NCBI RefSeq assembly: GCF_005671395.1
Contig: NZ_CP040428.1
Coordinates: forward strand, 2,542,001-2,606,000
Direction of reading: 5' to 3'
Length of the DNA stretch: 64,000 nucleotides
From: Jejubacter calystegiae
GTDB taxonomy: Bacteria > Pseudomonadota > Gammaproteobacteria > Enterobacterales > Enterobacteriaceae
Part shown: positions 39,144 through 64,000 of the stretch, piece after piece
Position numbering within the stretch: the stretch's first letter is position 1
Layout of the letters: each line of letters starts with the position of its first letter
Made by a program: the position numbers and the translations under genes
Notes under the pieces: model-generated
The model's input: only the letters and a program-made list of their open reading frames with translations
The model's database searches: none
What the model was told of the DNA's origin: nothing

Positions 39144-39530
39144 ATGATAATTCGTTCGTTGGATGATATAATAAATACTGAACGTGATGTGTCCTGGGGG
39201 GCAGGTAAAAGTCGGCGCTTGCTTCTGGAAAAGGATGGTCTTGGTTACTCGATTATGGAAACTATCGTTGAGTCTGGTAGTCAATCTGTACTGGAATATA
39301 CCAATCACCTTGAAACATGTTACTGCATTGAGGGCGAGGGTTGGGTAAAAGACCTGGCAACTGGAGAGCGGCATGAGATTTATCCCGGTGTCATGTACTC
39401 TTTGAATAACCATGATAAACATATCCTTGCCGCAACTACACGGTTAAAACTACTCAGCGTATTTATGCCTGCGTTGATTGGTCCGGAATCGCACAATCTA
39501 CGCGAAGATGGCGGTAGTTCCAGTTATTAA
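39144..39530 (+). CDS. ectC: Solitary ectoine-synthase-like cupin
   Basis: 128-aa single-domain cupin of ectoine-synthase (EctC) length. Seen: MIIRSLDDIINTERDV start as in EctC, the three iron ligands of characterised EctC at the same numbers (E57, Y85, H93), plus T40, Y52, F107, E115 and H117, residues also associated with the EctC substrate pocket. The Trp at 21 of EctC is Gly here and residue 105 is Ser. The ATG at 39144 follows AAGGAG; an ATG at 39138 is too close. No ectA or ectB is present, so it may cyclise another amino-acyl substrate in this cluster (inference). First gene of an operon with ETF-QO and EtfBA. Confidence 0.82.
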   Translation: MIIRSLDDIINTERDVSWGAGKSRRLLLEKDGLGYSIMETIVESGSQSVLEYTNHLETCYCIEGEGWVKDLATGERHEIYPGVMYSLNNHDKHILAATTRLKLLSVFMPALIGPESHNLREDGGSSSY

Positions 39531-39562
39531 CTCCCCTTCCATTACCGTACGGGATCTAAGAT

Positions 39563-41194
39563 ATGGAGCAGTCCATACAGGTAGATGTGCTTATTATTGG
39601 TGCCGGTGTGACTGGTTTAACTGCCGCACTTCGGTTGCTACAACAGGCTGAGAGTCATCGGCAGCAGTTGAGTGTTTGTTTGCTGGAAAAGTCCGATGAA
39701 ATAGGTGGGCATATTATATCCGGTGCGGTAATGGATACTCGTGCATTGGACGAACTGTATCCAGACTGGGAAAAGGAAGCAAGTACATGGTTAACGCCGT
39801 GTATAGAAGAAATGCTTCATTTTATGTTGACCCGGAGACAGGTTATCAGTTTACCTGACCATGTTATTCCGGAAGTATTTTTGCATCGCCAGTGTCGGCT
39901 GGTCAGTTTATCTGAATTATGCCGATGGCTGGCGGGTAAAGTTATCGCTGCTGGTGGCGATATTCTGACGGGCGTTAGTGGTAGCCAACTGACATTTGAT
40001 CATGCAGGACGCGTCAGTGGTGTAATCACTGGTGATTATGGCCGGGAGTCGTCGGGTGAACCTGGCCCCGGCTTTATTTCTGGCATGCGGATTCAGGCGC
40101 GTCAAACGCTACTGGCGGAAGGTACCCGTGGTTCGCTTAGTCGTGATGCTATCGGGCATTTTGGGCTGGCGGCGACAGCCAGTCAGCCACAGCACTATGC
40201 ATTGGGATTAAAGGAGCTGTGGCAGATAGATGAGAGTTTGCATTTCCCTGGTCGCGTTGAGCATTTCACGGGGTGGCCGTTGGCACCGCTGAGGGTTAAT
40301 GGCGGATTGTTTGCTTACCATATGCCGAATTGTCAGTTGGCGTTGGGGATGGTCGCCGATCTGGATTATAGCGATATTCGATTTAATCCTTTCGAAACTT
40401 TCCAGCGCGCCAAGCATCACCCCCGACTGGCACAGTTACTGGCTGGAGGGGCACGTATTGCTTTCGGCGCTCGTGCGTTAGCGAAAGGTGGATTAAAGGC
40501 CTTACCCCAAATGACGTTTCCGGGCGGTATGCTGCTGGGATGTGCCGCAGGTACGCTCAATCCCCAGCGCATGCAGGGGATTCATACCGCAATGAAAAGC
40601 GCTTTATTAGCCGCGGATGTGCTTTATCCCTGGTTACAGGGCCAACCGAACGATGGCCAACTGGCGCAGGCGTTTTCAAATGCCTTTCGGGAATCCTGGC
40701 TGTGGAATGAGCTGTATGATGCTCGTGATTTTCCCGTTACAGTGCGACGTTTCGGTACATTGTGCGGTACAGCGCTGTGGTGGGTAAGCGGCTTCTCTTT
40801 GGCACGCATCTGGTTGTCGCGACTGACGCCACCTTTGGCGGATCATCGCCATGTTTCTGTCTCCTCGCGCTCCGCGAAGCTGCCGAAATTTGAGCCTGAT
40901 GGCGTATTGAGTTTTGATCGCGCCTCTTCGCTGTACCTGAGCCGTATCGTCAGCCGTTCAACACAGCCTTGCCATTTGCGGTGTACGAACATGACACAAC
41001 AACAGAGTGAAATGGCGACACACTACTGTCCGGGCGGGGTATTTGTCTGGCAAGAAAATGAATCCGGGCGGTGCTTACATATCAATGGGCAAAACTGCCT
41101 GCATTGCAAAACATGCGACATCAAAGATCCGCAACAAACATTGCGTTGGCACCCTCCAGAAGGGGGAAGTGGGCCACGTTATCAGGATATGTAA
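39563..41194 (+). CDS. ETF:quinone oxidoreductase-like flavoprotein
   Basis: 543-aa protein with the full layout of electron-transfer-flavoprotein:ubiquinone oxidoreductase. Seen: N-terminal FAD motif VLIIGAGVTGLTAALRL, the EKSDEIGGHIISGAVMD segment, GGLKALPQMTFPGGMLLG, and a C-terminal 4Fe-4S domain with cysteines in HYCPGG and NCLHCKTCDIKDP. It passes electrons from reduced ETF to membrane quinone. Enterobacteria usually have only the FixC relative; here a complete dedicated copy sits beside matching ETF genes and, 20 kb away in the same cluster, an acyl-CoA dehydrogenase that could feed it. Confidence 0.9.
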   Translation: MEQSIQVDVLIIGAGVTGLTAALRLLQQAESHRQQLSVCLLEKSDEIGGHIISGAVMDTRALDELYPDWEKEASTWLTPCIEEMLHFMLTRRQVISLPDHVIPEVFLHRQCRLVSLSELCRWLAGKVIAAGGDILTGVSGSQLTFDHAGRVSGVITGDYGRESSGEPGPGFISGMRIQARQTLLAEGTRGSLSRDAIGHFGLAATASQPQHYALGLKELWQIDESLHFPGRVEHFTGWPLAPLRVNGGLFAYHMPNCQLALGMVADLDYSDIRFNPFETFQRAKHHPRLAQLLAGGARIAFGARALAKGGLKALPQMTFPGGMLLGCAAGTLNPQRMQGIHTAMKSALLAADVLYPWLQGQPNDGQLAQAFSNAFRESWLWNELYDARDFPVTVRRFGTLCGTALWWVSGFSLARIWLSRLTPPLADHRHVSVSSRSAKLPKFEPDGVLSFDRASSLYLSRIVSRSTQPCHLRCTNMTQQQSEMATHYCPGGVFVWQENESGRCLHINGQNCLHCKTCDIKDPQQTLRWHPPEGGSGPRYQDM

Positions 41195-43285: not shown

Positions 43286-44020
43286 ATGATAGTGCTGATG
43301 ATCGATGATGATGTGGACTTGGGCGAGACAATGAAACCCGTCTTGCAAATGTACGCTATCGATTTGGATGTGGTGCATTCCCCAGAGGAAGGCCTGGAAC
43401 GGCTACAATCGAAGACATACGATCTGGTGTTATTGGATGTGATGTTGCCGCGTATTAATGGTCTGGAACTTTGCCGCACTATTCGTAGTCAGGGTGCTCC
43501 GTTATGCGACATACCTGTAATTATGCTGTCGGCCAGAACAGAATTGGTAGATATGGTGGTGGGCCTGGAGACCGGGGCTGATGATTATGTTGGCAAACCT
43601 TTTGAGCCTCGTGAGTTAATCGCTCGTATTAATGCGGTGCGTCGGCGTTTCAATGACATCAAAATCGAACCGCCGACAGTGACAGAAAAAATCAGAAATG
43701 AAATTTTTTTTAGAATTAACAATGATACATTACGTATTGACGTCCCTCGCGCTCGGGCCTTTGTTAACGATCGTCTACTGGATGTGACGTCGATGGAGTT
43801 TGAAATTTTGTTAGCGTTAGGGAAAAATCCAAGCCAGGTCCTAAGCCGTGAAGAACTACTATTACGCTGTAATGGCAGTAACGTTATCTATTCGCGTGGG
43901 ATTGTCGCATTAGTCTATCGCCTGAGAAACAAAATACGTGCGGCAGGCGCGCAGGTCGATTTTATTCGTACCGTGCGTAGTAGAGGATACGCTGTTGTCG
44001 GTTACGTTAACTCACCGTAA
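43286..44020 (+). CDS. OmpR-family response regulator without adjacent kinase
   Basis: 244-aa response regulator. Seen: receiver with acidic pocket D7-D9, phospho-acceptor D51 in LVLLDVMLPR, Thr/Ser region MLSARTE, K in VGKPFEPRE, and a winged-helix output domain with RLLDVTSMEFEILLALG and VDFIRTVRSRGYAVVGY. Full length. It is a sister of the response regulator at 54364-55110 (same D51, same ADDYVxKPFExREL). No kinase follows it, so the kinase at 53079 may serve both, or it answers an unlinked kinase. Confidence 0.9.
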   Translation: MIVLMIDDDVDLGETMKPVLQMYAIDLDVVHSPEEGLERLQSKTYDLVLLDVMLPRINGLELCRTIRSQGAPLCDIPVIMLSARTELVDMVVGLETGADDYVGKPFEPRELIARINAVRRRFNDIKIEPPTVTEKIRNEIFFRINNDTLRIDVPRARAFVNDRLLDVTSMEFEILLALGKNPSQVLSREELLLRCNGSNVIYSRGIVALVYRLRNKIRAAGAQVDFIRTVRSRGYAVVGYVNSP

Positions 44021-44159
44021 GCCCGTTGAAATTGGGCTTGCAAGCCATAAGAAAAAGTCGCATTTATCCAGATTCGCTGTGGTGGATAGCCTATAGTGCT
44101 TCGCCAGTGGTTTGTAGCCTGAACGGGGTTCATTCGTAACGCGGGATATCCGCTCAGAG

Positions 44160-45123
44160 AATGGCAATCTAATTCCAGGCAGGGCATTTAGCATACCAGC
44201 CAGCCCCAACAACACAGACCGCTCTCTGCCAGGGCCAATTGTCCCCTCTGGTGTCCCCGCATTTTGCTGAGTGTAAACACGGCAAGTTTGCACCTTGCCT
44301 TGCCGACATACCCTGAACTGTAACGTGCTGCGGCATTTTCATTTATCCGCTCGACGCCTGGCGCGTCTTCCAGAATTATTCCGCTATCAGCCAGGCATAC
44401 GGTTGCCTGAGTCTGCGTATGGCATAACCTGACTGGAGAAGCCGCCAACGTGGCTGCCTGCTCCAGCTTGCTCTGGCCTGGTACTCTCTGCCCACCGCTT
44501 AGCGATGTCGTTATGGCCGCGGCCGGAGGTATGTCCATATTGATGCTGACCGGTAGTGGACGACCGGAAGCCAGGTACTGTTGATGGATCTGCTCTAATT
44601 GACGCCCCGGCAGGATTGAGATCGCCAGTCGTTGATGCGCTGACAGAGAGTCGGTTCCTGATTCCGACTGGCAATAGACGAAACCGGAAGTGATATAGGA
44701 TCCGGCGTCGTTTGGCGTATGCGTCAGTACCGGTAACTGCCATGGATGCTGAAAATATGGGTTACCCGGTGGTGATTGTTCATGAGGGATGAATACCGGT
44801 GCTTTGGCCCTGGCGATTAACCGGTGTACGTTGGCTGTGTTGAATGGGATCGTTAACTTCAACCTGTGACGCACCTTTGTTTCATCACCAAAACAACCCT
44901 GCAGAACCGGTAATTGTCCTCTGCTGTCAACAACGGGTAAAAGGTGATCCACTTACATCTCCACCAACGGTTCGCTATTGCGGTTACCGTGCGTCGGTGG
45001 TCCGGAATAACGTTGGGCATAATCCATGGCAATGGCGTCCAGGCGCATCAATGAGGTGTACTGGATGATTGGCATTTTCTTGAGCCAGGCTCGCAGTAAG
45101 TCAGGACACTCAAGATTCGACAT
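44160..45123 (-). pseudogene. Decayed UbiD-family decarboxylase gene
   Basis: Minus-strand gene starting inside the end of the RND pump gene (ATG at 45123, 14-base overlap). One frame runs from PDLLRAWLKK, is cut by an in-frame TAA at 44953-44955, and resumes directly with HLLPVVDSRGQLPVLQGCFG, PVLTHTPNDAGSYITSGFVY and RLAISILPGRQLEQIHQQYL, then ARYSSGYVGK. At about 44270-44290 the frame shifts and continues as TIGPGRERSVLLGLAGML before identity fades near PGIR. This order matches UbiD-type prenyl-FMN decarboxylases, which are normally 450-490 aa; the last third is missing. Non-functional as it stands. Confidence 0.65.
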
Positions 45124-47533
45124 GGACAGCTCCTTTTACCTGGTGAAGGCGTCCCGGCAGCAACATCATGATGGCTGGTATCAGGACTATGTCGATGAGC
45201 AAGGCAATTATCACACCAACCATCATCAGGCCGCCAAAACTTCGAATGTTACTCATAGAAGACAACAGGAACACCGAGAAGCTGAAAACAACCACAACAG
45301 CGGTCATTAATAGCGCGTTCCCAACTTCATTCAGAGTTGCGAACAGGGCATCCTGGGGGGTTGGGAGCAGCCGCAGGTAATGGCGGAAGGTATAGAACAT
45401 ATGCAAGGTTTCATCGACGATCAACCCAGTCAAAATACCGCCAATCAGGATAGTAAAGGTATCCATTGGGATATCCATAATCGCCATAATAGCCAGCACC
45501 ATTACATAGGGCAGAACGTTTGGGATCATGCTGATCAGCCCGATGCTGAGACTACGCAAGCAATAGCACATCAGTACGGTAATAATTGCCAGCGTTACCA
45601 TATAGCTGCTGACCATATTATCCAGCACGGCTTTTGACGTTCGGGCTAACAAATTAATCAATCCAGTAACTTTGACCTGGGCCAGTTCTCCCAGCTCTTG
45701 TTCAAAGATGTGCTGTACCTGTTCCGAAATACCGGTATACAGCGTTGCTTCCAGCCATGGCACCATGAAGGTAATACGGCCCTGGCGGTAGTCAAGACTG
45801 GCATAACGCATAATGGTGGAGTTGCCTTCTCCTTCCAGCAGGAAGAATTGCTCCCAGATCTGCTCCTGGCTCGGTATTTTCCGCTGGCTGGGATCGCCGT
45901 CGTGTATCGCCATATTGACTTCATCCATGTATGAGACCAGGCTGGTATGGCGGCCTATGGGGATCTTCAGTTCAAGATAAACGCGATCTACCGCGCGTTG
46001 TATGGCGTCGAGTACGGGCTTGCTGCGAAAGTCATTATTCTGTTGAGGTGTGACAATCAACTCCAGACTGACAGTACCGTGAAAGCGACTGTCGATAAAT
46101 TCGGTCGCCAGACGAACAGGGTTATTTTTTTCCAGCCATAGCAGAGAATTATGTGAGAAACGCAGATGAGATAATTGTGAAATCGCGCCGATTAACAACA
46201 AGGAAAAAATAATAATGACTTTACGTGGGTGATTGATTCCCAGGCTGCCAAGCGCCACGACCCAACGTCCGGTGCGTGCCACATGCGTGCGTTTGTGGTT
46301 GGTATAGCGATCGGGCAGGAAGGCGATAGCCTGCGTTCCCCAGAACAACGCAAAGAAATAGCTGGTCAGCGTCACCACCATTCCGAAGATCCCGAGTGCG
46401 GCAATGGGGGCCAGGTCGGATGCCAGAAAACCAAGCAGGCCATCAGCGCTGGTCAGGATACTGAACAGGATTGGGTGGTGGGTATGCTTCATCGCATGTT
46501 TGAGCAAGCCGATACGTTCAACTCCCGGCTTGCAGAAACTGGCGCTGGCGAGCATAAAGTGAACAAACACGCATAGCATGATGGTGAGTCCCATCGGGAT
46601 TAGGAACTGGGTCGGTGGTGTGATGGCTACACCACACAGCGCCATCAGTGACAGCATGGTCAGAATACTACAAACGAAAGCCAGTAATGCGGCGATACTG
46701 ATCACCAGGCTACGGAAGATCAAGGCGATTGCCAGTATTGCGATCAAAATACAGGCGAAGGTGAAACGCGGCATGTCCTGGGAAATGATGCGAACGATTT
46801 CGGAGCTGACGACTGGAGCGCCGGAGGTGTGGATAATAAAACCGGGACTGTTAAAACGCTGCGTGACCTGTTCAATTTTTTTTGTCATTTCACTGTACTG
46901 TTCCGAACTCAGAAACTGTCGTTTCACCGCTTGTGCGTTATAAAGCGGACATGATTTTCCCGTAGATGGATCGGCGATACAGTCGTGTTTGTTAGGGGAG
47001 TAGCGGAAAGGTTCGATAATAATCGCTGTGGTTTTACCTTCTTTATCGATAATAAAGTTCTGGTAAAGCGGTGTTGTCAAAATGCGATTTCTTAGCGTGT
47101 GTGGATCATTTTTTTCATGTAATACATTTTTCATCAGCTCTTCAAGATAAATTCCGTTATTTTTGTATTCGATGAATGGAATGTTATACAGACTGAATGT
47201 TTCGGAGATATATGGCACCTCATTCTGTAATGCAAGGTGTAGTTCAGAAAATTTTTTTATAAATGATGTTGAAAATATGTCATTGCCGCTAACGGTTATG
47301 ACAATGGGGTTGTCCTGGCCGAATTGCTTGCGAAAGTCATAGTATTTGATTAATGAAGAATCTTCCTGGTGCATAAATGCTTCAATACGACCATCATGAT
47401 GCAATTTTGGCATTCCATAACTGATAAAGCCGCCGACCAGAACCAGTAATAATAGTGCGCTTTTTATTCTGTTAACAAACACCCAGAATAGTAATGCCGT
47501 CATGGCACGGTCGATGAAATTAATTATCAACAT
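45110..47533 (-). CDS. RND/MMPL-superfamily exporter
   Basis: 807-aa inner-membrane pump. Seen: an N-terminal segment LLLLVLVGGFISYGMPKL, a large periplasmic loop (about residues 50-230), a first block of helices with IFRSLVISIAALLAFVCSI, a second periplasmic loop, and a last block with VDETLHMFYTFRHYL and VVFSFSVFLLSSM. The two-fold layout is that of MMPL and hopanoid-type RND exporters that move lipidic products across the periplasm. ATG 47533 follows AGGGA. Operon with a LolA-like protein upstream and a UbiD remnant downstream. Cargo is presumably the cluster product (inference). Confidence 0.87.
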   Translation of the reverse strand: MLIINFIDRAMTALLFWVFVNRIKSALLLLVLVGGFISYGMPKLHHDGRIEAFMHQEDSSLIKYYDFRKQFGQDNPIVITVSGNDIFSTSFIKKFSELHLALQNEVPYISETFSLYNIPFIEYKNNGIYLEELMKNVLHEKNDPHTLRNRILTTPLYQNFIIDKEGKTTAIIIEPFRYSPNKHDCIADPSTGKSCPLYNAQAVKRQFLSSEQYSEMTKKIEQVTQRFNSPGFIIHTSGAPVVSSEIVRIISQDMPRFTFACILIAILAIALIFRSLVISIAALLAFVCSILTMLSLMALCGVAITPPTQFLIPMGLTIMLCVFVHFMLASASFCKPGVERIGLLKHAMKHTHHPILFSILTSADGLLGFLASDLAPIAALGIFGMVVTLTSYFFALFWGTQAIAFLPDRYTNHKRTHVARTGRWVVALGSLGINHPRKVIIIFSLLLIGAISQLSHLRFSHNSLLWLEKNNPVRLATEFIDSRFHGTVSLELIVTPQQNNDFRSKPVLDAIQRAVDRVYLELKIPIGRHTSLVSYMDEVNMAIHDGDPSQRKIPSQEQIWEQFFLLEGEGNSTIMRYASLDYRQGRITFMVPWLEATLYTGISEQVQHIFEQELGELAQVKVTGLINLLARTSKAVLDNMVSSYMVTLAIITVLMCYCLRSLSIGLISMIPNVLPYVMVLAIMAIMDIPMDTFTILIGGILTGLIVDETLHMFYTFRHYLRLLPTPQDALFATLNEVGNALLMTAVVVVFSFSVFLLSSMSNIRSFGGLMMVGVIIALLIDIVLIPAIMMLLPGRLHQVKGAVHVES

Positions 47534-47601
47534 TGTCAATCCCTAATTGAAATACAGATGACCTACAACTTTCTAAGCTGTAGGTCGATTGTTTCAGATC
47601 A

Positions 47602-48474
47602 TTATGGTAGCGTTGTTAGTGGAAACTCCGGGGGTCTGTAGCTGCGCCAGGTGGATTGAAGATTGCCTAGATCTTTTACATCATACCATTCTGTTGGCAG
47701 GCCAAGGTTGAAACGTTCACCATAGACCTGGAATACAGAATGGGAGACTTTACGACCATCTTTTAATGTTGCTATATTAAATTGATTGGAGACATAAACA
47801 CCATCGACCCAATGATGATGGAAAGTTTCAAATATTCGCTGCTCATTGGGTGAATCGGCGTTAAACACACTGTAAACCGGCAGGAATGTTGTTTTTTCAA
47901 CCCAGATTTCGCCGTCTCTGAGCCCCAGACGGATAATTTCCTGCTGGTTATTCGGGTTGACATAAATTTTATATACAGAGAGTCCCTGGTATTCACCTTC
48001 GCCTAATGTTTTACAATCATAATCACTTGCCATACGAGTTAACATTTCACCAATATTCATATCAGAGCCGTTTAAGCGGCTACTGAGGTCCTTCGATTGA
48101 ACATCCAATAGCTTCTTGCTGGCTGGCAGGTATCGCCACACCTTATCATTCTTGCCCTTCTCGAAGTAATCCAGTGCGTAGGCTTCTGTATCAGCCAGCT
48201 CATTGGGAACTAACACCCTGCTGCGTAATATACGATTGATGCCGTTATTGCGGTGTGTTGCGGTAATGGTTCGAGTTTTAACATTACCATGCTCATCGCT
48301 AATAGTCATTTTAATCATGCGCCAACTATCGTAACCGTTGAAGCGATTTTGAATACCTAATAAAACATCCTTACAGGTTTTGGGTATCGATAGTGGTGTA
48401 GCCGCAAATAATGAAGGGCTGAGTAAAATCAGCGAGGTTGCCAGTAATAAATTCGGCAAAGTTTTTTCCTTCAT
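47602..48474 (-). CDS. LolA-like outer-membrane lipoprotein-sorting protein
   Basis: 290-aa periplasmic protein. Seen: a signal peptide (ending SLFAA), then the LolA-like-fold features DEHGNVKTRTITATHRN, DKVWRYLPASKKLLDVQSKD and LGLRDGEIWVEKTTFLPVYS, matching the outer-membrane lipoprotein-sorting family that pairs with RND exporters. The ATG at 48474 has GGAG before it; upstream codons to 48486 are less likely. It likely receives a hydrophobic cargo from the downstream pump and carries it through the periplasm. A second, different LolA-like gene lies at 56443-57228. Confidence 0.82.
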   Translation of the reverse strand: MKEKTLPNLLLATSLILLSPSLFAATPLSIPKTCKDVLLGIQNRFNGYDSWRMIKMTISDEHGNVKTRTITATHRNNGINRILRSRVLVPNELADTEAYALDYFEKGKNDKVWRYLPASKKLLDVQSKDLSSRLNGSDMNIGEMLTRMASDYDCKTLGEGEYQGLSVYKIYVNPNNQQEIIRLGLRDGEIWVEKTTFLPVYSVFNADSPNEQRIFETFHHHWVDGVYVSNQFNIATLKDGRKVSHSVFQVYGERFNLGLPTEWYDVKDLGNLQSTWRSYRPPEFPLTTLP

Positions 48475-52481: not shown

Positions 52482-52611
52482 CGTTATTCGCTTAATACAC
52501 CCCTTATCAGTGTGTTTTTTTTGTGGAGCCTCCCGGGTGAATATTTTCGGATGTTGTTTTCGTAGTCCGTTAAATGAGCCAGGTGTATGGGGGATCGCCA
52601 AAGCTGCCATG

Positions 52612-53050: not shown

Positions 53051-53078
53051 GACAGTGTGCTTTCAGGGGCGCATGTAA

Positions 53079-55129: not shown

Positions 55130-56446
55130 TTACAAGGTATAGAAGAATGTCATCATCGCTCCGTTTTTACGTCCGGCGCTGCCATATATTGTGTTGCTGT
55201 TACCAAAATAGTGATAGCCTGTTATTTCAATGCGAGAGGTGGGGTGTATGGGGGCACTCAGTGTTATCTGACTGAAACCGCTGCCGTCCATTGGGGTAAC
55301 GGTAGTGATTAATGAGAGATCGTTATCGTCCCAAAAATCGTTCCACGCAAAGCGGCCAAAGAGTTGCTGCCTGGCTAAGGGCTCCTGTTTTTCTCCGGCT
55401 AATGCGGCGATGCGTAATGCTCTGGTGTCGTTTTGCGTAATGGCCTGACGCCAGCTTGCCATTTGTGATTGTTTCAGTCCCGCTTCGTTAAAGTGAAATT
55501 CGACACTCAGTGAAATATCCTCGCTACTGGCTATGCTTTCTGGAACAGACCAGGTAACGCCACTCGCTAATTGATGATATAATCGCATCGTACCGTTATT
55601 GACGTTCAACGCCTCGTTGGTCAAATTTTGCCTGCGTTGGACGAACCATTCGCTGTATAACACCAGATTATCCCGCATAGCCAGACTCACTTCGGCGCCC
55701 AGGCTGGGCTGGTTGCTCTGATACAGGGAACTGACGGTGAGTGAAAGGTTGTTCCATGAATCCGGGGATGGGGCATATTTTACGAACAACGCATCGCGGT
55801 TGTTGGTGCGATCCAGTCCTAGCCCTACAATGTCGCTATCGCTGGTTAGGGTATCCGGTTTGGCGCGCAGATCTGGCCGGTATCCGAAACTGAGCAGGTT
55901 ATCCGCGTGGAGCCAGATGCCCTCCAGCGCAACCACGCCAAGACGATCTTCGCGTCGATCGGCCGCATCAAGACTTTCGAAAATGACCTGGCTATTCGCT
56001 TTAAACCAATCGGTTGGGTTAAAACCATTGGCAACGCCATTACGGATGTTAGTGCGCCCGGCCAGCCAACGCCATGTGGAATTGGTGCTATAGCTAAAGG
56101 CCAGGGATTGCACATCCACACGGATATCATTTTGGGCCTGATAATTTTTGCGATTGTTTATTTGTGTTCGCAGACGGGTATTTAACTCAATGTTAAATGA
56201 CTCGTCTAACGAACCCTGGCCGTACAACCGGGCTGAAATGCGCCCGGTAGTAATCGCGCTGTCGTGTTTGCGCCAGTTCGCCATTCCCTGGTTCTTAAAC
56301 TCCAGATTGAACGGTGCCAGTAAATTCGCTGTCGCCTCCGTCGTTGGCACTGAGTCCGGTAGCGTGGGGAGCTCAAAATCATCCGCATAGACTGTCAGGC
56401 TGAGCAAACAGCCCATGAAGGTTAACAGTGAACGTGTCTGTTTCAC
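55130..56446 (-). CDS. Putative outer-membrane beta-barrel protein
   Basis: 438-aa exported protein. Seen: a signal peptide ending VYADD, then alternating strands rich in aromatic and polar residues (RISARLYGQGSL, SYSTNSTWRWLAGRTNIRNG, LSLTVSSLYQSNQ, EITGYHYFGNSN) and a C-terminal strand GAMMTFFYTL, consistent with a beta-barrel. It resembles DUF1302/alginate-export-like porins only in overall pattern. Overlaps the LolA-like gene by 4 bases, so it belongs to the ABC/LolA export module, probably as the outer-membrane receiver or channel (inference). Confidence 0.72.
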   Translation of the reverse strand: MKQTRSLLTFMGCLLSLTVYADDFELPTLPDSVPTTEATANLLAPFNLEFKNQGMANWRKHDSAITTGRISARLYGQGSLDESFNIELNTRLRTQINNRKNYQAQNDIRVDVQSLAFSYSTNSTWRWLAGRTNIRNGVANGFNPTDWFKANSQVIFESLDAADRREDRLGVVALEGIWLHADNLLSFGYRPDLRAKPDTLTSDSDIVGLGLDRTNNRDALFVKYAPSPDSWNNLSLTVSSLYQSNQPSLGAEVSLAMRDNLVLYSEWFVQRRQNLTNEALNVNNGTMRLYHQLASGVTWSVPESIASSEDISLSVEFHFNEAGLKQSQMASWRQAITQNDTRALRIAALAGEKQEPLARQQLFGRFAWNDFWDDNDLSLITTVTPMDGSGFSQITLSAPIHPTSRIEITGYHYFGNSNTIYGSAGRKNGAMMTFFYTL

Positions 56447-57228
56447 ACGCCCCCCTGCGGGCTAAAATGTGATAGCCACTCTTTATTAAACCATGGCAGG
56501 GGCAGATCTTGCTGACGATAGTTGCTCATTTGCATCAGCGTTACCTTATTGGGATTAAAGCCATCGCTGATGAGCACTTCTGTTGGCCGAATGCGGTCAA
56601 ACACCTGTTGCCATTTGCGATACCAGGCTACTTTCAATAACCTACCGCTGCCGCCGTAGAATTTACCTTTTAGAGGGCGGTCATTCTCTTTATCGACCCA
56701 CAACTCGATCGCTTTGTAAGGGGCAAAGTCATTGATGGAAGACAGGCGTAATTTCCACGCCGCGCGTGCCTGGCGGTCTCCATCCACGATGCTCTCTTCC
56801 CCTTGCAATACGGCCGAATAATCCTGGGTAAAATTTGACGTAATGACGTCACCGTTAGAGGCGTTGCCCAGCAGGCGCTGGCGCGGCGACATACGCACCG
56901 AGGCTTTGGATTTCGGATCGTAAAACCACAATATGTTGTCATTACGGAGTAACAACTTGCCGCGGTCGCGACTCGGATAATCAATATGAACGATAGTGAG
57001 AAACTGGCCTTTGGTATTCTGGCGTGAATGTGTAGTCACGCGATTCTCATCGGTGAGTTGATTACCTTCGTACTGTTTTAGCGCCACCTTGACCACAAAC
57101 GAGGACTGCGGGTTACGGATCGCATCAGAACGCTGCAAAATATCCTGCGCCTGCGCCTGCTCCGCAAGGGAGGGCAGGGGGCTAAATGCTGTTATCAGAT
57201 ATAGTAGATGTAAAGGTTTCAGCATCAT
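56443..57228 (-). CDS. LolA-like outer-membrane lipoprotein-sorting protein
   Basis: 261-aa periplasmic carrier. Seen: a signal peptide ending SLAEQ, then QAQDILQRSDAIRNPQSSF, HIDYPSRDRGKLLLRND, NILWFYDPKSKASVRMSPRQ and LSSINDFAPYKAIELWVDKE, typical of the outer-membrane lipoprotein-sorting family. Distinct from the LolA-like gene at 47602. Between the ABC permease and the outer-membrane protein, so a LolA-like shuttle between them is likely. Confidence 0.83.
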   Translation of the reverse strand: MMLKPLHLLYLITAFSPLPSLAEQAQAQDILQRSDAIRNPQSSFVVKVALKQYEGNQLTDENRVTTHSRQNTKGQFLTIVHIDYPSRDRGKLLLRNDNILWFYDPKSKASVRMSPRQRLLGNASNGDVITSNFTQDYSAVLQGEESIVDGDRQARAAWKLRLSSINDFAPYKAIELWVDKENDRPLKGKFYGGSGRLLKVAWYRKWQQVFDRIRPTEVLISDGFNPNKVTLMQMSNYRQQDLPLPWFNKEWLSHFSPQGGV

Positions 57229-57238
57229 AAGACTCCTG

Positions 57239-58627
57239 TCAGGCGTGGTGAATTGCGGAAATCATGTTCATACGCGATGCTTTGTAGGTTGGCCAAATCG
57301 CGGCTAATACAGAAAGGCTGAACAGGAAGGCCATGATGCTTAATGTCAGCATCGGGTTTTCCAGAACCATCAGATTAATGACAATTGGCGTAGCATTGCT
57401 GGGGGGGGTCCAGTTAAGCTTCATGTTGTTGATTATTGTGCTGGCAATCAGCGCCAAAATCAGAGCCGTCAGGGTGCCGAAGAGCCCCATCAGGGCGCTT
57501 TCGGACATAAACATTCGCATGATAAAGCTGCGGCGAAAACCCATGGCCCGGATGGTACCGATCTCACTCACCCGTTCCATGACCGTCAGGTTGATGGTGT
57601 TGGTGATAGTGAAAATAATCACGATGCCGAGGAAGAGCGAGACGACGCCAAAGATAAAGGAAAACATGGCGAAGATACGGTCGAATGAGGGATCAACCTC
57701 ATTGAAATGAAACACCTCCTGATTCATGCCCGCATCGTTTAATTTTCGTTGGATAAGTTGCTTAACCCGTTCAGCCTGGTTTGGATCTTTCAACTGCACT
57801 AGTAGCACCGTCGCCCGCGGCTGATCGCCATATAACAGTTCACGGGCCAGTTCGAAATGCATCATGATAAAGGCGTTGTCCAGGGCGCGTTGCGCCTGGG
57901 TCTGGGCTTTTTTGACATACACGCTGACGATATTTGGCGCGCCTTCTGCGCTGGCTGCCAGCAGGTTGAGCTGTGTACTTTTTTCATTGTCGATTTGCTG
58001 GTTGAGTTGCTCCTTGTCCTCGCCGTCTATCAAACCGCTAACATCGATGCCTTCATCGGCGATGATTTTTTTCAACGATGGTGGATCCTGGCAATTCGGA
58101 ATCTCCAAAGGCTTGCATAAGCCGAGCAGACGAGCCATGCCAACACCGATGACGGAACCTTCTCGATTGTTTTGTTGCAGGCCGGTAGGGGGAGTTGACA
58201 CCTGAACATGCCAGCCATCCCATTGACGCATTTTATCGACCGCCTCCGGTTCGATACCGCGCCCCTGGAACGTTTTGCTGTTATCGGTAGTGACAACACC
58301 GGCAATACCGGCCAGATAAATCTGTGGCGTGATCACCGAGATTTCTTTTTTTAGTACAGGGTCTCTCAGTAGCAGATCGGTAACCGCTTGATAGTTGTCG
58401 ATGGCGTAGTTATCAGGATCGGCAGCGCCAAATTTCAGATAGTCTTTTTGATAGATCTGCAACTGCCCTTGCTCCTGAATCATCGAGGTTTGGACGCCGA
58501 AATAGATCGACGTAACGAAACCGCCAAACAGCATCATCGCTAAACCGCCAATACCGATAGACGTAATGGTAATAACCGAACGGCGACCGTTCTTCAGTAA
58601 GTTACGCAGTGCGATTAGCCAAATCAT
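57239..58627 (-). CDS. FtsX/MacB-type ABC transporter permease
   Basis: 462-aa permease. Seen: N-terminal helix after MIWLIALRNLLKNGRRSVIT, a periplasmic domain of about 230 residues, and three C-terminal helices with FTITNTINLTVMERVSEIGT and RAMGFRRSFIMRMFMSESAL, the FtsX/LolC signature before the coupling helix. With the ATPase (4-base overlap), it should drive mechanotransmission-type extraction of a lipid-like cargo from the inner membrane, passing it to the LolA-like protein. This is inferred from the gene set. Confidence 0.9.
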   Translation of the reverse strand: MIWLIALRNLLKNGRRSVITITSIGIGGLAMMLFGGFVTSIYFGVQTSMIQEQGQLQIYQKDYLKFGAADPDNYAIDNYQAVTDLLLRDPVLKKEISVITPQIYLAGIAGVVTTDNSKTFQGRGIEPEAVDKMRQWDGWHVQVSTPPTGLQQNNREGSVIGVGMARLLGLCKPLEIPNCQDPPSLKKIIADEGIDVSGLIDGEDKEQLNQQIDNEKSTQLNLLAASAEGAPNIVSVYVKKAQTQAQRALDNAFIMMHFELARELLYGDQPRATVLLVQLKDPNQAERVKQLIQRKLNDAGMNQEVFHFNEVDPSFDRIFAMFSFIFGVVSLFLGIVIIFTITNTINLTVMERVSEIGTIRAMGFRRSFIMRMFMSESALMGLFGTLTALILALIASTIINNMKLNWTPPSNATPIVINLMVLENPMLTLSIMAFLFSLSVLAAIWPTYKASRMNMISAIHHA

Positions 58628-59346
58628 TGCTTGACCCCAATGTTCTGTAATTTGCCATCGACAATGTGAATCAGACGTCCTGACTCGTTGAGTAAGTTTT
58701 CGTTATGCGTACAAATCACAAAGCTGGTATTGAAATGGCTACGCATATCCAGCATTAACTGAATGATTTCATCTGAGGTACTGGAATCAAGATTGGCGGT
58801 TGGTTCATCGGCGATGACCAGTGCAGGGGTCGTGACTAAAGCCCGGGCGATAGCTACCCGCTGCCGCTGTCCTCCACTAATCGCGCCAGGGCGACGATCC
58901 ACATACTCCTTCAGTCCGACGGATTCCAGGTAGTATTCGGCTTTCTCTCGTCGTTCGTGATGTGATAATCCATGATGCAACAGCGGAAATTCAACATTCT
59001 CGCGAACAGAAAGTACCGGGAGCAGGTTGAAAGATTGAAAAATAAAGCCGATGTGTTTAGCGCGAAAATCGGCGGCCTGGTTGTCGTTTAAGGCCAGCAC
59101 ATCCTGCCCCAGGATATTGATTTCACCTTCTTCTGGTTTGTCCAGCATTCCCAATATATTCAGGAAAGTGGATTTTCCGCTACCAGAAGGACCGTAAACA
59201 AAAGTTATTTCCCCTTTGGGAATGGTGCAACTCACATTATTTATTGCTGTGAGCGGATAACCATCCATGTTGTACTTTTTAACAACGCCTTTAAGGATCG
59301 CTATTTTCTCCTTGTCATAAGGAAGGCTACTTTGCTCCATTTGCAC
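58624..59346 (-). CDS. LolD/MacB-type ABC ATPase
   Basis: 240-aa ATPase. Seen: Walker A GPSGSGKST, Q-loop FIFQSFNLLP, signature ISGGQRQRVAIARAL, Walker B LVIADEPTANLDS and the switch His in ICTHNE. First gene of a minus-strand operon ATPase-permease-LolA-like-barrel-regulator-kinase. Powers the FtsX-type permease downstream. Confidence 0.94.
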   Translation of the reverse strand: MQMEQSSLPYDKEKIAILKGVVKKYNMDGYPLTAINNVSCTIPKGEITFVYGPSGSGKSTFLNILGMLDKPEEGEINILGQDVLALNDNQAADFRAKHIGFIFQSFNLLPVLSVRENVEFPLLHHGLSHHERREKAEYYLESVGLKEYVDRRPGAISGGQRQRVAIARALVTTPALVIADEPTANLDSSTSDEIIQLMLDMRSHFNTSFVICTHNENLLNESGRLIHIVDGKLQNIGVKQ

Positions 59347-59798: not shown

Positions 59799-60809
59799 AT
59801 GAAGGAAAGAATTGTCTTTACTGGCGCAGTGAAATTATTGCCACAACCGGTAGTTGCTGCGAACCATTGCCGCGAAAATACTTCGGTGATTCGTTTTACT
59901 GATGATGAAGAGTTATTGGCCCTGTCCCATCAGTCTAAACGTCAGACGCTGCTTTCGATGCTACTGAACCAGCAATGTGAACGCCTGTTTCAACAGGCAG
60001 GATTGGGTATCGACGACATACGCGGTACCGATACCGGGCTGGTCTCTGGTTCCTATTACGGTTGTATGAGTACAACCCAGAATATTTCTGATGCTTTATG
60101 GCAAAAAGGTCCGCGAGGCGTTGACGTTATTGAATTCGCTAAAGCGACACACAGCTTCCCTTTATCCGCCGCTAGTATTGAATTCACTTTATTAGGTCCT
60201 ACTGCGGCCGTCGTTTCTGGCGAATTTGCCGGACTGGATGCGCTGATGATGGCGAATGACTGGCTATTGAGTGGGCGCTGTCAGCGAGTGATCGTGGTGG
60301 GTTATGAGCATTTTTCTCCGTTGCTGGAAGAGCACTTACGAGAAATCACGGGCGAAGAGCAAGCGGGACTGTATAGCGATAACCTCAGCATACTGCTACT
60401 GGAAACCTATAGTAGTGCGGTGGCGCGTCAGGCGTCGGTGATGGCCGAACTGCTTCAGGTAATACGATTGGGCGGCTCCTTGGCAACGTTGCCTGCGCGT
60501 TGGCAAAAAATCGCGGCTTCATGGCCGCAAGGAGATGCCGCGATTAACGTGTTAACTAACCACTCTCCTCACCCTGGCGCTCGTCAACTGGAAGAGGAGG
60601 TGTTGGGCGGCTATAGCGCTGGTTTCCGCAGGCATAGCGTTCAGGATCTGCCCCAGGCGTTGGGAGCCTGTCCATTATTGCAATTAGCTCATTTCTTCCT
60701 CTCTTCGCCAGATATCAAAGGCGAATATTTATTACATCACTTTACCGCTAATGGTGCCGCAGGAGTTCGCTTTAATCTGGGCCAATCAGGAGAAACCTAT
60801 GCAATTTAA
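59799..60809 (+). CDS. Chain-length-factor-like ketosynthase homologue
   Basis: 336-aa thiolase-fold protein of the beta-ketoacyl-ACP synthase superfamily that lacks the catalytic Cys. Seen: GLVSGSYYGCMSTTQNISDA, the segment LLGPTAAVVSGEFAGLDALM in which E142 stands where the active-site Cys of ketosynthases is expected, and VIVVGYEHFSP. Also no HGTGT motif; instead TNHSPHPGARQL. Shorter than usual CLF (about 400 aa). Directly upstream of, and overlapping by 11 bases, an intact ketosynthase, so the two probably form a KS/CLF-type heterodimer. Gene order CLF first is reversed from type II polyketide clusters of actinomycetes. Confidence 0.75.
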   Translation: MKERIVFTGAVKLLPQPVVAANHCRENTSVIRFTDDEELLALSHQSKRQTLLSMLLNQQCERLFQQAGLGIDDIRGTDTGLVSGSYYGCMSTTQNISDALWQKGPRGVDVIEFAKATHSFPLSAASIEFTLLGPTAAVVSGEFAGLDALMMANDWLLSGRCQRVIVVGYEHFSPLLEEHLREITGEEQAGLYSDNLSILLLETYSSAVARQASVMAELLQVIRLGGSLATLPARWQKIAASWPQGDAAINVLTNHSPHPGARQLEEEVLGGYSAGFRRHSVQDLPQALGACPLLQLAHFFLSSPDIKGEYLLHHFTANGAAGVRFNLGQSGETYAI

Positions 60810-62004
60810 AACGGTTGCAGTGACGGGGATGGGGACGGTAACCCGTGATGCTGTTGGCCTTCAGGCGCTTTGGCGTCATTTGTTGGCTGGTGGCGCTTTA
60901 CCTGCACCACCGACCTATTTCGACAGCGCCGGTTTCCGTTCTCAGAATACCTATACCGTAGATCCGCAGGCGTTGTGGCAGCGCCAGTTGCAGTCCTGCT
61001 GGCCTGCTTCTCCCGCGTTGTATCAACGCTTGCCTTGCGCTGGTTATGGTTGGCTTGCGGCCCGGGAGGCGCTTTGTCAGGCCTCTCTGGACAATGTGGA
61101 TATCTCTTGCATGGGGCTGAGTCTTGCGACGACCAGCGGCGGTAGCATGGATAGTTTCGCTTCTGGCGGTACGACCGAGGACGCGCGCTATGGTGCTTTG
61201 AGCAGTGCCGCTTATTTACTGGCTGAACTCTTGCAACTGGGGGGAAGCGTCAGCGTTTTTTCGTGTGCCTGCGTGAGCGGTGCCGCGGCGCTGAGTCATG
61301 CTTTTGAGCGAGTTCGGCAAGGTGATACCCCTCTGATGCTGGCTGGCGGATGCGATCAGGTTCGCGAAGCTGATTTTGCCGGATTTAATGCTCTGCGGGC
61401 CGTCGCTCCAGACGCCTGTCGTCCATTTGATGAAAATCGTAAAGGTATGGTGATGGGAGATGGCGCCGCAATGCTGGTTCTGGAAGATTTGGAACACGCC
61501 ATTGCGCGCGGAGTTCGGCCTTTGGCCATCTTTCGTAGCTTTGGCCTGGCGGCAGATGGCCATCATCTGACTGCGCCGAATCCTGATGGGTTGGTACGCG
61601 CCATGCGACAGGCCCTGGCGGGTACAGAGGGGATACCGGGGTATATCAACTGTCATGGAACCGGCACGCAGGCCAATGATAGTAGTGAATTGCTGGCAAT
61701 GCAGCAGGTGTTTGGCAGCGAACCCAGCGAACAGGTGGTCAGTTCTACCAAAAGCAGCGTTGGGCATTTATTGGGCAGCGCCGGAGCGCTTGAAGCTGTG
61801 TTGACGATTAACGTCCTGCGGGAGCAATGCGTTCCGCCGATGACGACCTGCAATCAACCGATGGCGACAATGAACTTTCGCCTGCCCATGCGGGATCGGG
61901 CGCTGCCTGTCGTGACTGATTGGGCAATGAGTAATTCTCTGGGATTTGGCGGTCTGAATGGCAGCCTGATCTTTTCACGGCCATCGGGAAATAACCCCAT
62001 TTAA
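60799..62004 (+). CDS. Beta-ketoacyl-ACP synthase (KS, FabF type)
   Basis: 401-aa condensing enzyme. Seen: VAVTGMGTVTRDAVG start, catalytic Cys C158 in CACVSGAAALSHAFE, first His H286 in NCHGTGTQAND, K318 and second His H323 in STKSSVGHLLGSAGALE, and the C-terminal NSLGFGGLNGSLIF. The Cys-His-His triad is complete. The Cys context (ACVSG) differs from FabF (ACTSG). Start at 60799 follows CAGGAG. Probably the active half of a heterodimer with the upstream CLF-like protein; the acyl carrier protein is not in this window. Confidence 0.9.
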   Translation: MQFKTVAVTGMGTVTRDAVGLQALWRHLLAGGALPAPPTYFDSAGFRSQNTYTVDPQALWQRQLQSCWPASPALYQRLPCAGYGWLAAREALCQASLDNVDISCMGLSLATTSGGSMDSFASGGTTEDARYGALSSAAYLLAELLQLGGSVSVFSCACVSGAAALSHAFERVRQGDTPLMLAGGCDQVREADFAGFNALRAVAPDACRPFDENRKGMVMGDGAAMLVLEDLEHAIARGVRPLAIFRSFGLAADGHHLTAPNPDGLVRAMRQALAGTEGIPGYINCHGTGTQANDSSELLAMQQVFGSEPSEQVVSSTKSSVGHLLGSAGALEAVLTINVLREQCVPPMTTCNQPMATMNFRLPMRDRALPVVTDWAMSNSLGFGGLNGSLIFSRPSGNNPI

Positions 62005-62020: not shown

Positions 62021-63178
62021 ATGGATAAGGATATGAAGGTAATGACTGATGACCTGCTTGAGGCGCTGCTGTCGGAGGTGGGGAACTGGAGCCAGGCGAT
62101 TAATCAGGGCTGGCTGGAAGATGAACTGCGGGGACAATTTAGTCAGTCGCGCTGGCAACGGCTGAAAGCGAGCGGTCTGACCGGATTACTTAACAGCCAG
62201 AAGGCGGGTGGTCTGGGACTGAATGCCCCTCAGGCGGCGCGTTTTCTGTCCTGTTTTGGCGAACTTTGTCTCGATGGTGGGCTGAGTTTTGCCCTCTGTA
62301 CGCATTTGTGCAGTAGTTGTCTGCCGATTGAACGCTTTGGTTCTGAAACATTGCGTCAACGTTTGTTGCCCCTTCTGATTGCCGGAGACGCTATTGGTGC
62401 TCATGCCATTACTGAGGCTGAAAGTGGTTCAGACGCTTTTGCTATGAACACCACGGCGGTTAAAGTGCCTGGCGGTTGGGTTCTGAATGGCACCAAAATA
62501 TTTGTCTCTAACGGGCCGATCTCCAGCCATGTGGTGGTTTATGCCTGCACCGATCGCTCTCGTGGTTCACTGGGGGGATATAGTGCTTTTGTGGTTGATA
62601 CTCACCTGGAAGGCGTCATTACCGGCCCTGCCGGGCACAAAATGGGCTTAAAAACGTCGCCGTTGGGAGATGTTTACCTCACTAACGTCTATGTCAGCGA
62701 TGAGTGTTTGTTAGGTAAGGCGGGTATGGGATTCGCCATTCTCGATTTCGTGATGAAGTGGGAAGTGCTATGCGTATTTGCCTGTCAGGTCGGGGAGATG
62801 AAACGTCGTCTGGCCCAGTGTTTGCTTCAGGCTAAAACGCGTCATCAGTTTGGTGAGCCGATAGGTAAGAATCAGGCCGTGTCGCATCGGCTGGTGAATA
62901 TGCACTTGCAGGTTGAGACAGCGCAATATTGGCTGCTGCGAGCGGCGGATTCGTTACATAGCGGTAAAAATACCTCCGGTGACATTGCTGCTGCCAAGTT
63001 GATAATCAGCGAAAGCAATGTGGCAACCGCTCTGGATGCGGTCAGACTGTTCGGCGGCTCGGGTTATATGGCGGAAATGGGGATAGAGAAACAGCTACGT
63101 GACGCGGTGGGAGGCGTCATTTATTCGGGGAGTTCGGACATTCAACGCAATCGCCTTGCCGCGATGCTGGGGTTGTGA
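62021..63178 (+). CDS. Acyl-CoA-dehydrogenase-type flavoenzyme (acyl/aminoacyl-carrier dehydrogenase)
   Basis: 385-aa flavoprotein with the full acyl-CoA dehydrogenase fold. Seen: LCTHLCSSCLPIERFG, the FAD/substrate segment AHAITEAESGSDAFAMNTTA and WVLNGTKIFVSNG, then RHQFGEPIGKNQAVSHRLVNM, FGGSGYMAEMGIEKQLRDA, and the C-terminal SGSSDIQRN. Next to a stand-alone adenylation enzyme this matches the PigA/PltE/RedW-type prolyl-carrier dehydrogenases that form a pyrrole (inference). The start is uncertain (62021, 62033 or 62042). Electrons could pass to the cluster's own ETF. Confidence 0.85.
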   Translation: MDKDMKVMTDDLLEALLSEVGNWSQAINQGWLEDELRGQFSQSRWQRLKASGLTGLLNSQKAGGLGLNAPQAARFLSCFGELCLDGGLSFALCTHLCSSCLPIERFGSETLRQRLLPLLIAGDAIGAHAITEAESGSDAFAMNTTAVKVPGGWVLNGTKIFVSNGPISSHVVVYACTDRSRGSLGGYSAFVVDTHLEGVITGPAGHKMGLKTSPLGDVYLTNVYVSDECLLGKAGMGFAILDFVMKWEVLCVFACQVGEMKRRLAQCLLQAKTRHQFGEPIGKNQAVSHRLVNMHLQVETAQYWLLRAADSLHSGKNTSGDIAAAKLIISESNVATALDAVRLFGGSGYMAEMGIEKQLRDAVGGVIYSGSSDIQRNRLAAMLGL

Positions 63179-63180
63179 AG

Positions 63181-64000
63181 ATGAATGATATCCTGCCCCA
63201 ACATTTAGCCTCCTGGGTTTTCGCCGCCAGGAATTCGCAGGCCGTTGCCGTACGGTGCGGCGAACGGTGGCTCAGCTATCAGCAGTTAGCGGATGGTGCA
63301 CACAATCTGGCGCAGGCGCTACCTCCGCTGCAGGTTGAGCGCCCGGTCTACGCGTTAGTGATGAAGAAAAGTATTGACGCGGTTCAGGCTATTGTTGCGG
63401 TGTTAAGTATTGGGGGGTGCTATGCGCCATTGGATGCCAGCTATCCGGTGGAACGTTTAAAAGCCATTCTCGGCACCTTGCAACCCCGTGCGGTACTGAC
63501 GGACAGTCACAGCGATGCGATCGTGCGCGTGATTGCCGGGCAGATGGCGTTGCCTGTTATCAATATTGATAATCCGATTCGCCTGGCAGAGCCTATGAAC
63601 AGCGCGGTTAGCCAGCCCATGGCGGCGATTCTGCATACTTCCGGCTCTACCGGGTTGCCAAAATCGGTGCATATTGGCGCAGCGCAAATCTATGCTTTTA
63701 CCGACTGGGTAATCAATGAATTCAATCTGAGTGCTGCCGATCGCGTATTGAATCATGCGCCGCTGGCGTTTGATCTGACCTTTCTCGATCTGTTCGCCAC
63801 TTTTCGCGCCGGTGCGACCTTAATTTTGACCACAGAAAGCGAAGCCGGTAGCGGCGCCCGGTTACGGCAAATTTGCCACCAGCAGCGCGCCACCGTGTGG
63901 CATTCCACCCCGACGTCTCTGCGTTTATTACTCATGAGCGATGAACTGGCGCGTTTTCCTGATATGCGCGCGGTGATGTTTGCTGGTGAACCTATGCAGG
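63181..64000 (+). CDS. Adenylation enzyme (prolyl-AMP-ligase-like), truncated by window edge
   Basis: First 273 residues of an AMP-forming adenylation enzyme; runs off the window. Seen: the core A2-type segment GGCYAPLDASYPVERLK, A3 LHTSGSTGLPKSVHIG (Ser replaces the usual Gly after Lys), NHAPLAFDLTFLDLFATFRA with D198 at the amino-binding position, and VMFAGEPMQ. By eye alignment, six specificity positions read D, L, L, H, M, A, close to the D-L-L-Y-L-A start known for proline-activating PltF/CloN4-type enzymes. Amino acid identity therefore probable but not certain. Begins 2 bases after the dehydrogenase. Confidence 0.85.
   Translation, partial: MNDILPQHLASWVFAARNSQAVAVRCGERWLSYQQLADGAHNLAQALPPLQVERPVYALVMKKSIDAVQAIVAVLSIGGCYAPLDASYPVERLKAILGTLQPRAVLTDSHSDAIVRVIAGQMALPVINIDNPIRLAEPMNSAVSQPMAAILHTSGSTGLPKSVHIGAAQIYAFTDWVINEFNLSAADRVLNHAPLAFDLTFLDLFATFRAGATLILTTESEAGSGARLRQICHQQRATVWHSTPTSLRLLLMSDELARFPDMRAVMFAGEPMQ

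Follow-up and report, generated by a model that had tools for sequence, protein, structure and literature searches.

We analysed a 64,000-nucleotide stretch of the Jejubacter calystegiae genome (the window; contig NZ_CP040428.1, positions 2542001-2606000 of a genome held in one 5.18-Mb contig, G000 below) and found a biosynthetic gene cluster that begins in its right-hand part and runs past its end. With a probability of roughly 0.6, we read this cluster as a pyrrolopyrrole pathway of the kosinostatin type adapted to Gram-negative bacteria, without the aromatic polyketide synthase (PKS), that would serve the biosynthesis, export and sensing of a small molecule. The product, which would be exported, probably carries a bicyclic amidine of the pyrrolo[2,3-b]pyrrole type. 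We infer the core chemistry from protein families, residues and gene company. For kosinostatin (quinocycline) of Micromonospora, Ma et al. are said to have described in 2013 a pyrrolopyrrole made in a way that resembles the synthesis of tryptophan. An aromatic type II PKS reportedly works there together with a discrete adenylation (A) enzyme, a carrier and tryptophan-like enzymes, which lead to the pyrrolopyrrole, a bicyclic amidine.

Gene content and extent of the cluster

The cluster spans 27.6 kb, from window position 39,144 to 66,718, and thus passes the window end at 64,000. It contains 24 intact and 2 decayed genes. The enzymes named in the original prediction, which was made from the letters of the window alone (EctC, electron transfer flavoprotein (ETF), ETF:ubiquinone oxidoreductase (ETF-QO), TrpF, TrpA, AfsA, amino oxidase, a ketosynthase (KS) pair, acyl-CoA dehydrogenase and AMP-binding enzyme), are all present by Pfam. 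The two remnants, UbiD-like and transglutaminase-like, had been overlooked. The genes are as follows, with positions counted from the first letter of the window.

39144-39530, +, EctC-like cupin of the orphan ectoine-synthase type; PF06339, 5.5e-42
39563-41194, +, ETF-QO; PF21162, PF05187
41210-41923, +, ETF beta subunit; PF01012
41920-42849, +, ETF alpha subunit; PF00766, PF01012
43286-44020, +, OmpR-type response regulator RR1; PF00072, PF00486; 84% identity to genome G033, 53% to Aliiroseovarius
about 44017-44907, -, decayed UbiD-like decarboxylase gene; PF01977 in a fragment
45110-47539, -, MMPL/RND-type exporter; PF03176; best NCBIfam model the HAE3 family TIGR00921, under cut-off
47602-48486, -, LolA-like periplasmic carrier 1; PF17131
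48838-49494, +, TrpF-like isomerase; PF00697 (PRAI), 1e-14
49487-50284, +, TrpA-like enzyme of the indole-glycerol-phosphate lyase type; PF00290 (Trp_syntA)
50277-51143, +, AfsA-like hotdog protein; PF03756, 1.1e-19; 52% to G033, 36% to Aliiroseovarius
51140-52423, +, flavin amine-oxidase/HpnE-like oxidoreductase (flavin enzyme); PF01593; 74% to G033, 59% to Aliiroseovarius
52573-53088, -, decayed transglutaminase-like gene; 52% to its G033 counterpart across 199 aligned positions
53079-54431, -, sensor histidine kinase; HAMP, HATPase_c; 66% to G033
54364-55110, -, OmpR-type response regulator RR2; PF00072, PF00486
55130-56446, -, presumed outer-membrane protein, family-less; 69% to G033, 38% to Aliiroseovarius
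56443-57228, -, LolA-like periplasmic carrier 2; PF17131, 1.1e-32
57239-58627, -, FtsX/LolC-type ABC permease; PF02687; lolCE match under cut-off
58624-59346, -, ABC ATPase; PF00005
59799-60809, +, truncated KS, a chain-length-factor (CLF)-like partner; PF00109 in part (N-terminal)
60799-62004, +, KS; PF00109, PF02801; AmcF-like, under cut-off
62021-63178, +, acyl-carrier dehydrogenase of PigA/RedW type; acyl-CoA dehydrogenase family; PigA 3.1e-103, RedW 4.9e-92
63175-64665, +, A enzyme, cut by the window end at 64000; PF00501, 4.9e-59
64,691-64,945, acyl carrier protein (ACP), outside the window after the A gene
64,947-66,023, TrpD-like enzyme, outside the window
66,020-66,718, TrpC-like enzyme, outside the window, last gene of the cluster

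Reading 19 kb from position 61,000 gave the rest of the A gene and the genes for ACP, TrpD-like and TrpC-like enzymes, so the set of TrpD-, TrpF-, TrpC- and TrpA-like enzymes is complete. An extension to the right had been suggested to look for carrier proteins, dehydratases and the cluster end. The carrier and the end were found, but among the scanned cluster proteins no dehydratase family was seen apart from the AfsA-like hotdog. Beyond 66,718 come genes for [2Fe-2S]/molybdopterin oxidoreductase and cytochrome c, an operon unrelated to the cluster, and a metal-type P-ATPase flanks it on the left.

Genes within the blocks are close or overlapping, as noted before: neighbours in the three biosynthetic blocks are spaced by -11 to +32 bases, and those in the block from kinase to ABC ATPase by -68 to +19 bases. 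In the latter block kinase, RR2, presumed outer-membrane protein, LolA-like carrier 2, FtsX-type permease and ABC ATPase form one contiguous run. The MMPL, LolA-like and ABC/FtsX proteins agree with the predicted export through the envelope. The presumed outer-membrane protein had no match in Pfam, NCBIfam or PHROG; single-sequence structure models of it and of the AfsA-like protein (predicted local distance difference test scores of 32 and 29) were too poor for a structure search.

Relatives in Streptomyces and Proteobacteria

We searched a plasmid collection of 72,556 records. The TrpF-like protein matched 19 records, 8 from Aliiroseovarius and 11 from Streptomyces (31-34% identity to the latter), and the TrpD-like protein matched those same 19 and 2 others (35-39% identity in Streptomyces). 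Six of the 11 Streptomyces plasmids were read. Homologues of EctC, A, ACP, dehydrogenase, TrpD, TrpA, TrpF and TrpC were found together in five of them: NBC_01351, S. xanthii, NBC_00209, NBC_00523 and S. clavuligerus. This eight-gene core was called by annotation in NBC_00523, where the 'hypothetical protein' matches TrpD by tblastn, and by tblastn in S. clavuligerus. The core on S. clavuligerus pCLA1 (L111, about 15100-21600) lies in a stretch without annotated features. The S. xanthii operon also carries a transglutaminase-like gene, and sits between a group of KS, CLF and ACP genes and a group of aromatase/cyclase and FabG genes. The earlier statement that the combination matched no known pathway was thus too strong, since the enzyme core recurs on Streptomyces plasmids and fits the kosinostatin pyrrolopyrrole pathway as described above.

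We then turned to Proteobacteria; the window organism's genus is represented by one genome in the set searched. In G033, a member of another genus of the same family, all 24 proteins matched by tblastn (45-84% identity), with gene order and relative orientation preserved. The RR2 match there covers only 39 residues, at its place, and G033 RR2 has an internal deletion. Neighbouring genes scanned on the trpC side of G033 (MipA, a protein kinase) differ from the J. calystegiae flanks. In a third genus, G112, only the half from kinase to trpC is kept in the stretch read (L103, G112:C1:552000-571999). Its KS, A and TrpD frames are interrupted, and it adjoins a transposase-like frame and an A-domain-like frame; judged from these frames, it is a decaying remnant. 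The family search with the AfsA-like protein did not find an AfsA gene in G112. When 283 family genomes from 154 genera were searched with the alignment of the TrpD-like protein, three, from three genera, matched with E values no higher than 1e-90: G000, G033 and G112.

The flavin-enzyme query matched 8 plasmid records, all from Aliiroseovarius crassostreae (59-60% identity), and the CLF-like, AfsA-like, dehydrogenase, EctC-like, TrpF-like and TrpD-like queries also matched those eight, among others. In the one record read, 21 of the 24 proteins match at 34-59% identity. The blocks are rearranged, with EctC directly upstream of CLF-KS-dehydrogenase-A-ACP-TrpD-TrpC. We found no description of this plasmid cluster, or of the gene combination as such, in the open-licence literature. 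Complete collinearity in G033 and the 21 matches on the A. crassostreae plasmid agree with the prediction of one biosynthetic cluster, and by its gene order the cluster is a conserved unit.

Broader scans gave weaker matches. Weak AfsA matches besides G033 occurred in G161, G151, G147, G080, G064, G183, G125 and G172; the G161, G151 and G080 stretches were rejected as cluster relatives, having only the AfsA match and KS- or ABC-type matches. Overlapping, non-exhaustive samples of 394 order, 369 class and 398 phylum genomes yielded, beyond the organism's own genome, weak AfsA matches in G279, G427 and G890. Against named-genome contigs the AfsA-like protein had no match, and the flavin-enzyme alignment (two patterns) gave 57 loci, mostly in Bradyrhizobium and other alphaproteobacteria, whose best segments span about 30 to 114 residues of the query (35-60% identity). 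These loci were set aside as FAD-domain matches, judged by titles and match lengths, and no cluster relative was recognised in the AfsA-like and flavin-enzyme scans of that collection. E. coli had no match to the flavin-enzyme DNA.

The G+C fraction of the cluster is 0.502, compared with 0.550 in the window to its left and 0.605 in the 13 kb to its right. This points to horizontal acquisition. The sole tRNA of the window is at 15,316. Elsewhere in the window, fimbrial chaperone-usher genes lie on the + strand at 5678-9312 (usher, PF00577; fimbrial subunit, PF00419). Beside them, G+C falls to 0.45-0.47 at 10001-14000, and an open reading frame at 11194-12012 has no Pfam family.

Catalytic residues and a candidate pathway

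Residues were compared across six clusters (G000, G033, Aliiroseovarius, NBC_01351, S. xanthii and NBC_00209). All six share the TrpD-like motifs GTGGG and K[S/T]GS, the EctC motif WGxGxSRR and the A-domain signature ND[T/S]F. The TrpD-like protein scored 204 bits against TIGR01245, slightly above the cut-off of 199. The housekeeping TrpD of G000 has GTGGD and KHGN at the same places. The His and Asn of KHGN, which we take to be the anthranilate site, are absent from all six cluster enzymes; a DE pair downstream is kept in all six. Because the acceptor motif is changed but the DE pair is kept, we read the cluster enzyme as a phosphoribosyltransferase with another amine acceptor than anthranilate.

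The other Trp-like enzymes retain their motifs. The KICG Cys and LIDRF Asp of the TrpF-like enzyme, and the E[I/V]K, RKDF and NRD motifs of the TrpC-like enzyme, are present in all three orthologues compared; the TrpC-like enzyme has SAS where the genome's housekeeping enzyme has SES. In the TrpA-like enzyme the Glu and Asp aligned with what is presumably the lyase-site pair are retained. Cluster TrpD, TrpC and TrpA are 39, 57 and 46% identical to the Aliiroseovarius proteins, compared with 31, 33 and 24% to the genome's own. The genome's own TrpD is encoded separately from the cluster, in a stretch that also carries TrpC- and TrpA-type proteins.

The EctC-like cupin retains the iron residues E57, Y84 and H92 in the three proteobacterial orthologues, as a bona fide ectoine synthase does, but departs from one at Asn38 and Trp21. 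Position 38 is Thr in five of the six clusters and Met in the sixth, and the Trp stands at position 18, inside WGxGxSRR. No EctA scored above cut-off in the genome (24.8 bits versus 120.6); EctB was not searched for. EctC can convert glutamine to 5-amino-dihydropyrrole-2-carboxylate (ADPC), described for Halomonas EctC as a weak side reaction (PMC6344544, PMC5924519), and the function of solitary EctC proteins is termed unresolved (PMC5924519). The closest plasmid EctC was that of Gloeothece verrucosa (L112, 13001-18110; 60% identity), another orphan-EctC setting with a different annotated neighbourhood of fatty acid desaturase, GNAT, tryptophan 7-halogenase and HpaB-like genes. On a Rhizobium gallicum plasmid (L116, 6001-12387) an EctC-like gene immediately precedes a large type I PKS, in a neighbourhood that differs from the cluster.

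ETF-QO was found in 7 of 149 family genomes, and the cluster copy is the only one in G000 and in G033; its 4Fe-4S domain is likewise the only one found in the J. calystegiae genome. Since ETF-QO is rare in the family and the cluster copy is the sole one in these two hosts, we infer that the cluster brings its ETF genes along as an electron outlet for hosts that otherwise have none. The Aliiroseovarius cluster is without the three ETF proteins.

The KS retains Cys-His-His in all three orthologues, and in its CLF-like partner the nucleophile Cys is Val in all three. Scores against the NCBIfam models AmcF (207 bits, cut-off 325) and AmcG (31 bits, cut-off 80) were both under cut-off, and the partner has 336 residues to the 157 of the AmcG model. 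The dehydrogenase scored 346 bits against PigA (cut-off 500) and 309 against RedW (cut-off 650), and its nearest solved relatives include prolyl-carrier dehydrogenases. Pocket codes of the A enzyme were read by hand from alignments; on this basis the code is DLLH[M/L]AIDTK in the three proteobacterial orthologues, compared with DLFYIAWVCK in a PigI-like enzyme of G183 whose gene is 13 kb from that of a true PigA. The A-domain Asp is kept in all six clusters, and other pocket positions differ in Streptomyces.

Together these features suggest the following pathway. The EctC-like cupin would make, or later close, a cyclic amidine, in the simplest case by converting glutamine to ADPC. The A enzyme would load this or a related proline-shaped acid onto the ACP, and the PigA-type dehydrogenase would oxidise the bound acid towards a (2-amino)pyrrole thioester, its electrons passing through the cluster's own ETF and ETF-QO to ubiquinone. 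The TrpD-like enzyme would then place phosphoribose on the amidine nitrogen, the TrpF-like enzyme isomerise it, the TrpC-like enzyme close the second five-membered ring and the TrpA-like enzyme split off glyceraldehyde phosphate. By analogy with AmcF-AmcG, the KS/CLF-like pair probably contributes a single malonyl unit, and the AfsA-like and flavin enzymes may finish the product. The MMPL/LolA and the ABC/FtsX/LolA/outer-membrane modules would export it, under control of the kinase and the regulators. An earlier proposal of a pyrrolyl- or aminoacyl-started chain joined to a phosphate-derived unit keeps its first half, as the dehydrogenase is nearest to the prolyl-carrier type. The second half is not supported: it is more likely that the TrpD/F/C/A-like enzymes add a ring from phosphoribosyl pyrophosphate and release the phosphate part.

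Several points weigh against the kosinostatin-type reading. The UbiD- and transglutaminase-like genes are decayed in the window. The former has stops and has lost about 110 residues internally in J. calystegiae, and shows frame changes in G033; the latter has 4 stops inside its match to the G033 gene and is an open frame in G033, Aliiroseovarius and S. xanthii. In A. crassostreae, where both are annotated, UbiX shares the cluster with UbiD, which suggests a prenyl-FMN decarboxylation step that was lost in the enterobacterial versions. Canonical TrpC decarboxylates its substrate, whereas the corresponding position of an aminopyrrole bears no carboxylate. A free carboxylate substrate for the EctC-like cupin is doubtful because P. 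lautus EctC contacts the carboxylate of its substrate through N38 (PMC6344544), and this residue is replaced here. Known EctC makes ADPC poorly and reversibly (PMC5924519). In S. albogriseolus the core is split: one part holds ACP, TrpD and EctC, the other, about 87 kb away, holds A, TrpA, dehydrogenase and TrpF. A TrpC-like gene was not found in the two stretches read (L117, 13574-15297; L118, 10043-15030). The roles given to the AfsA-like protein, the flavin enzyme and the KS/CLF-like pair are guesses, and the likeness to kosinostatin is drawn from the general description of its pathway and from review passages. As a separate observation, UbiX, LysE, MFS and anthrone-oxygenase-like genes lie within the A. 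crassostreae cluster (L081, 23132-27278).

Other readings were weighed against the same evidence. The run of ABC, FtsX, LolA, outer-membrane, response regulator and kinase genes in one block could belong to a quorum-sensing system like Vfm of Dickeya, with a non-ribosomal or ketide signal, an ABC permease as co-sensor and a two-component read-out. Vfm likewise has an ABC permease and a two-component system alongside an oxoacyl-ACP synthase and adenylation enzymes, but the latter number three, VfmM, O and P, to the one A enzyme here (PMC9306890), and VfmH is Fis-type whereas both cluster regulators are OmpR-type (PMC10714721). The product may instead be an antibiotic with self-sensing. We regard a Vfm-like role as possible, if tentative; it concerns use, not chemistry, and can be compatible with the pyrrolopyrrole pathway. 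Identity with the Dickeya vfm locus itself was dropped on gene content alone, not by sequence comparison.

A close variant of the pathway with another starter would have A enzyme, ACP and dehydrogenase turn proline into pyrrolyl-ACP, as in prodigiosin and pyoluteorin, with extension by the KS/CLF-like pair and a second pyrrole or indole built by the Trp-like enzymes on a later amine. The dehydrogenase fits the PigA and RedW models and prolyl-carrier dehydrogenase structures best, and a stand-alone prolyl ligase (7thn) ranks seventh among the solved A enzymes listed. However, the under-cut-off PigA and RedW scores and the pocket unlike the PigI-like enzyme speak against proline, and a proline starter leaves EctC and the amine source unexplained. 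We consider it unlikely. Passages in a review describe kosinostatin as a type II PKS/nonribosomal peptide synthetase hybrid that uses nicotinic acid and ribose, and cite its 'pyrrolopyrrole moiety' (PMC5321127); by that route the ring would not stem from a glutamine-derived amidine. We saw no sequence feature pointing to a pyridine substrate, and the A and dehydrogenase relatives include proline-handling enzymes, so we hold the nicotinate route, too, to be improbable here. Hapalindole-type clusters carry trpABCDE paralogues (PMC4236562), but a mere supply of indole or tryptophan to an indole natural product is very improbable for this cluster, given the changed TrpD acceptor motif, the greater nearness of TrpD, TrpC and TrpA to the Aliiroseovarius proteins and the fact that none of the scanned cluster proteins gave a match of TrpE, TrpG or TrpB type.

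Should the pyrrolopyrrole pathway be correct, a rare ring-building chemistry known from actinomycetes would extend to Enterobacteriaceae and marine alphaproteobacteria, and a subset of solitary EctC proteins would gain a concrete reaction. Natural-product oxidation is also suggested as a use of ETF/ETF-QO in the two hosts. More tentatively, and with the odds against it, the cluster may represent a new Gram-negative class of signal or antibiotic: a one-ketide-extended pyrrolopyrrole, with an ETF/ETF-QO-coupled aminoacyl-carrier dehydrogenase, LolA-like handover, its own ABC/two-component sensing and a true function for one set of orphan EctC proteins.

Comparison with known systems

The Aliiroseovarius cluster is one of the closest comparisons, with the same blocks; it differs in block order, in the absence of the ETF genes, in annotated UbiD, UbiX and transglutaminase genes, and in added MFS, LysE and anthrone-oxygenase genes. 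Like other orphan EctC proteins, the cluster EctC has retained metal residues, a shifted Trp and no ectAB neighbours. Unlike them, it sits in a defined pathway context with Thr or Met in place of Asn38. In cispentacin biosynthesis AmcF-AmcG (KS-CYF), a KS with a shortened partner, carries out one C2 extension and ring closure (PMC10698177). One C2 extension is plausible here as well, although both models score under cut-off and the cluster partner is longer. Prodigiosin PigA/PigI shares the dehydrogenase family and a stand-alone A enzyme with the cluster, but the PigA score is under cut-off and the A pocket is not that of the PigI-like enzyme.

The kosinostatin pathway is reported to combine a discrete A enzyme, a carrier and TrpD/F/C/A-like enzymes, to which we added EctC from the Streptomyces operons. 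This set is encoded in one cluster here, and a bicyclic amidine would be the shared product. S. xanthii shows that the same eight core genes can adjoin an aromatic type II PKS. Among the J. calystegiae cluster proteins we found no aromatase/cyclase, ketoreductase or full CLF. The aromatic type II PKS genes are therefore absent and this is not a kosinostatin cluster; only the module would be shared. Extra in this cluster are ETF/ETF-QO, the KS/CLF-like pair, the AfsA-like protein, the flavin enzyme, and Gram-negative export and two-component genes.

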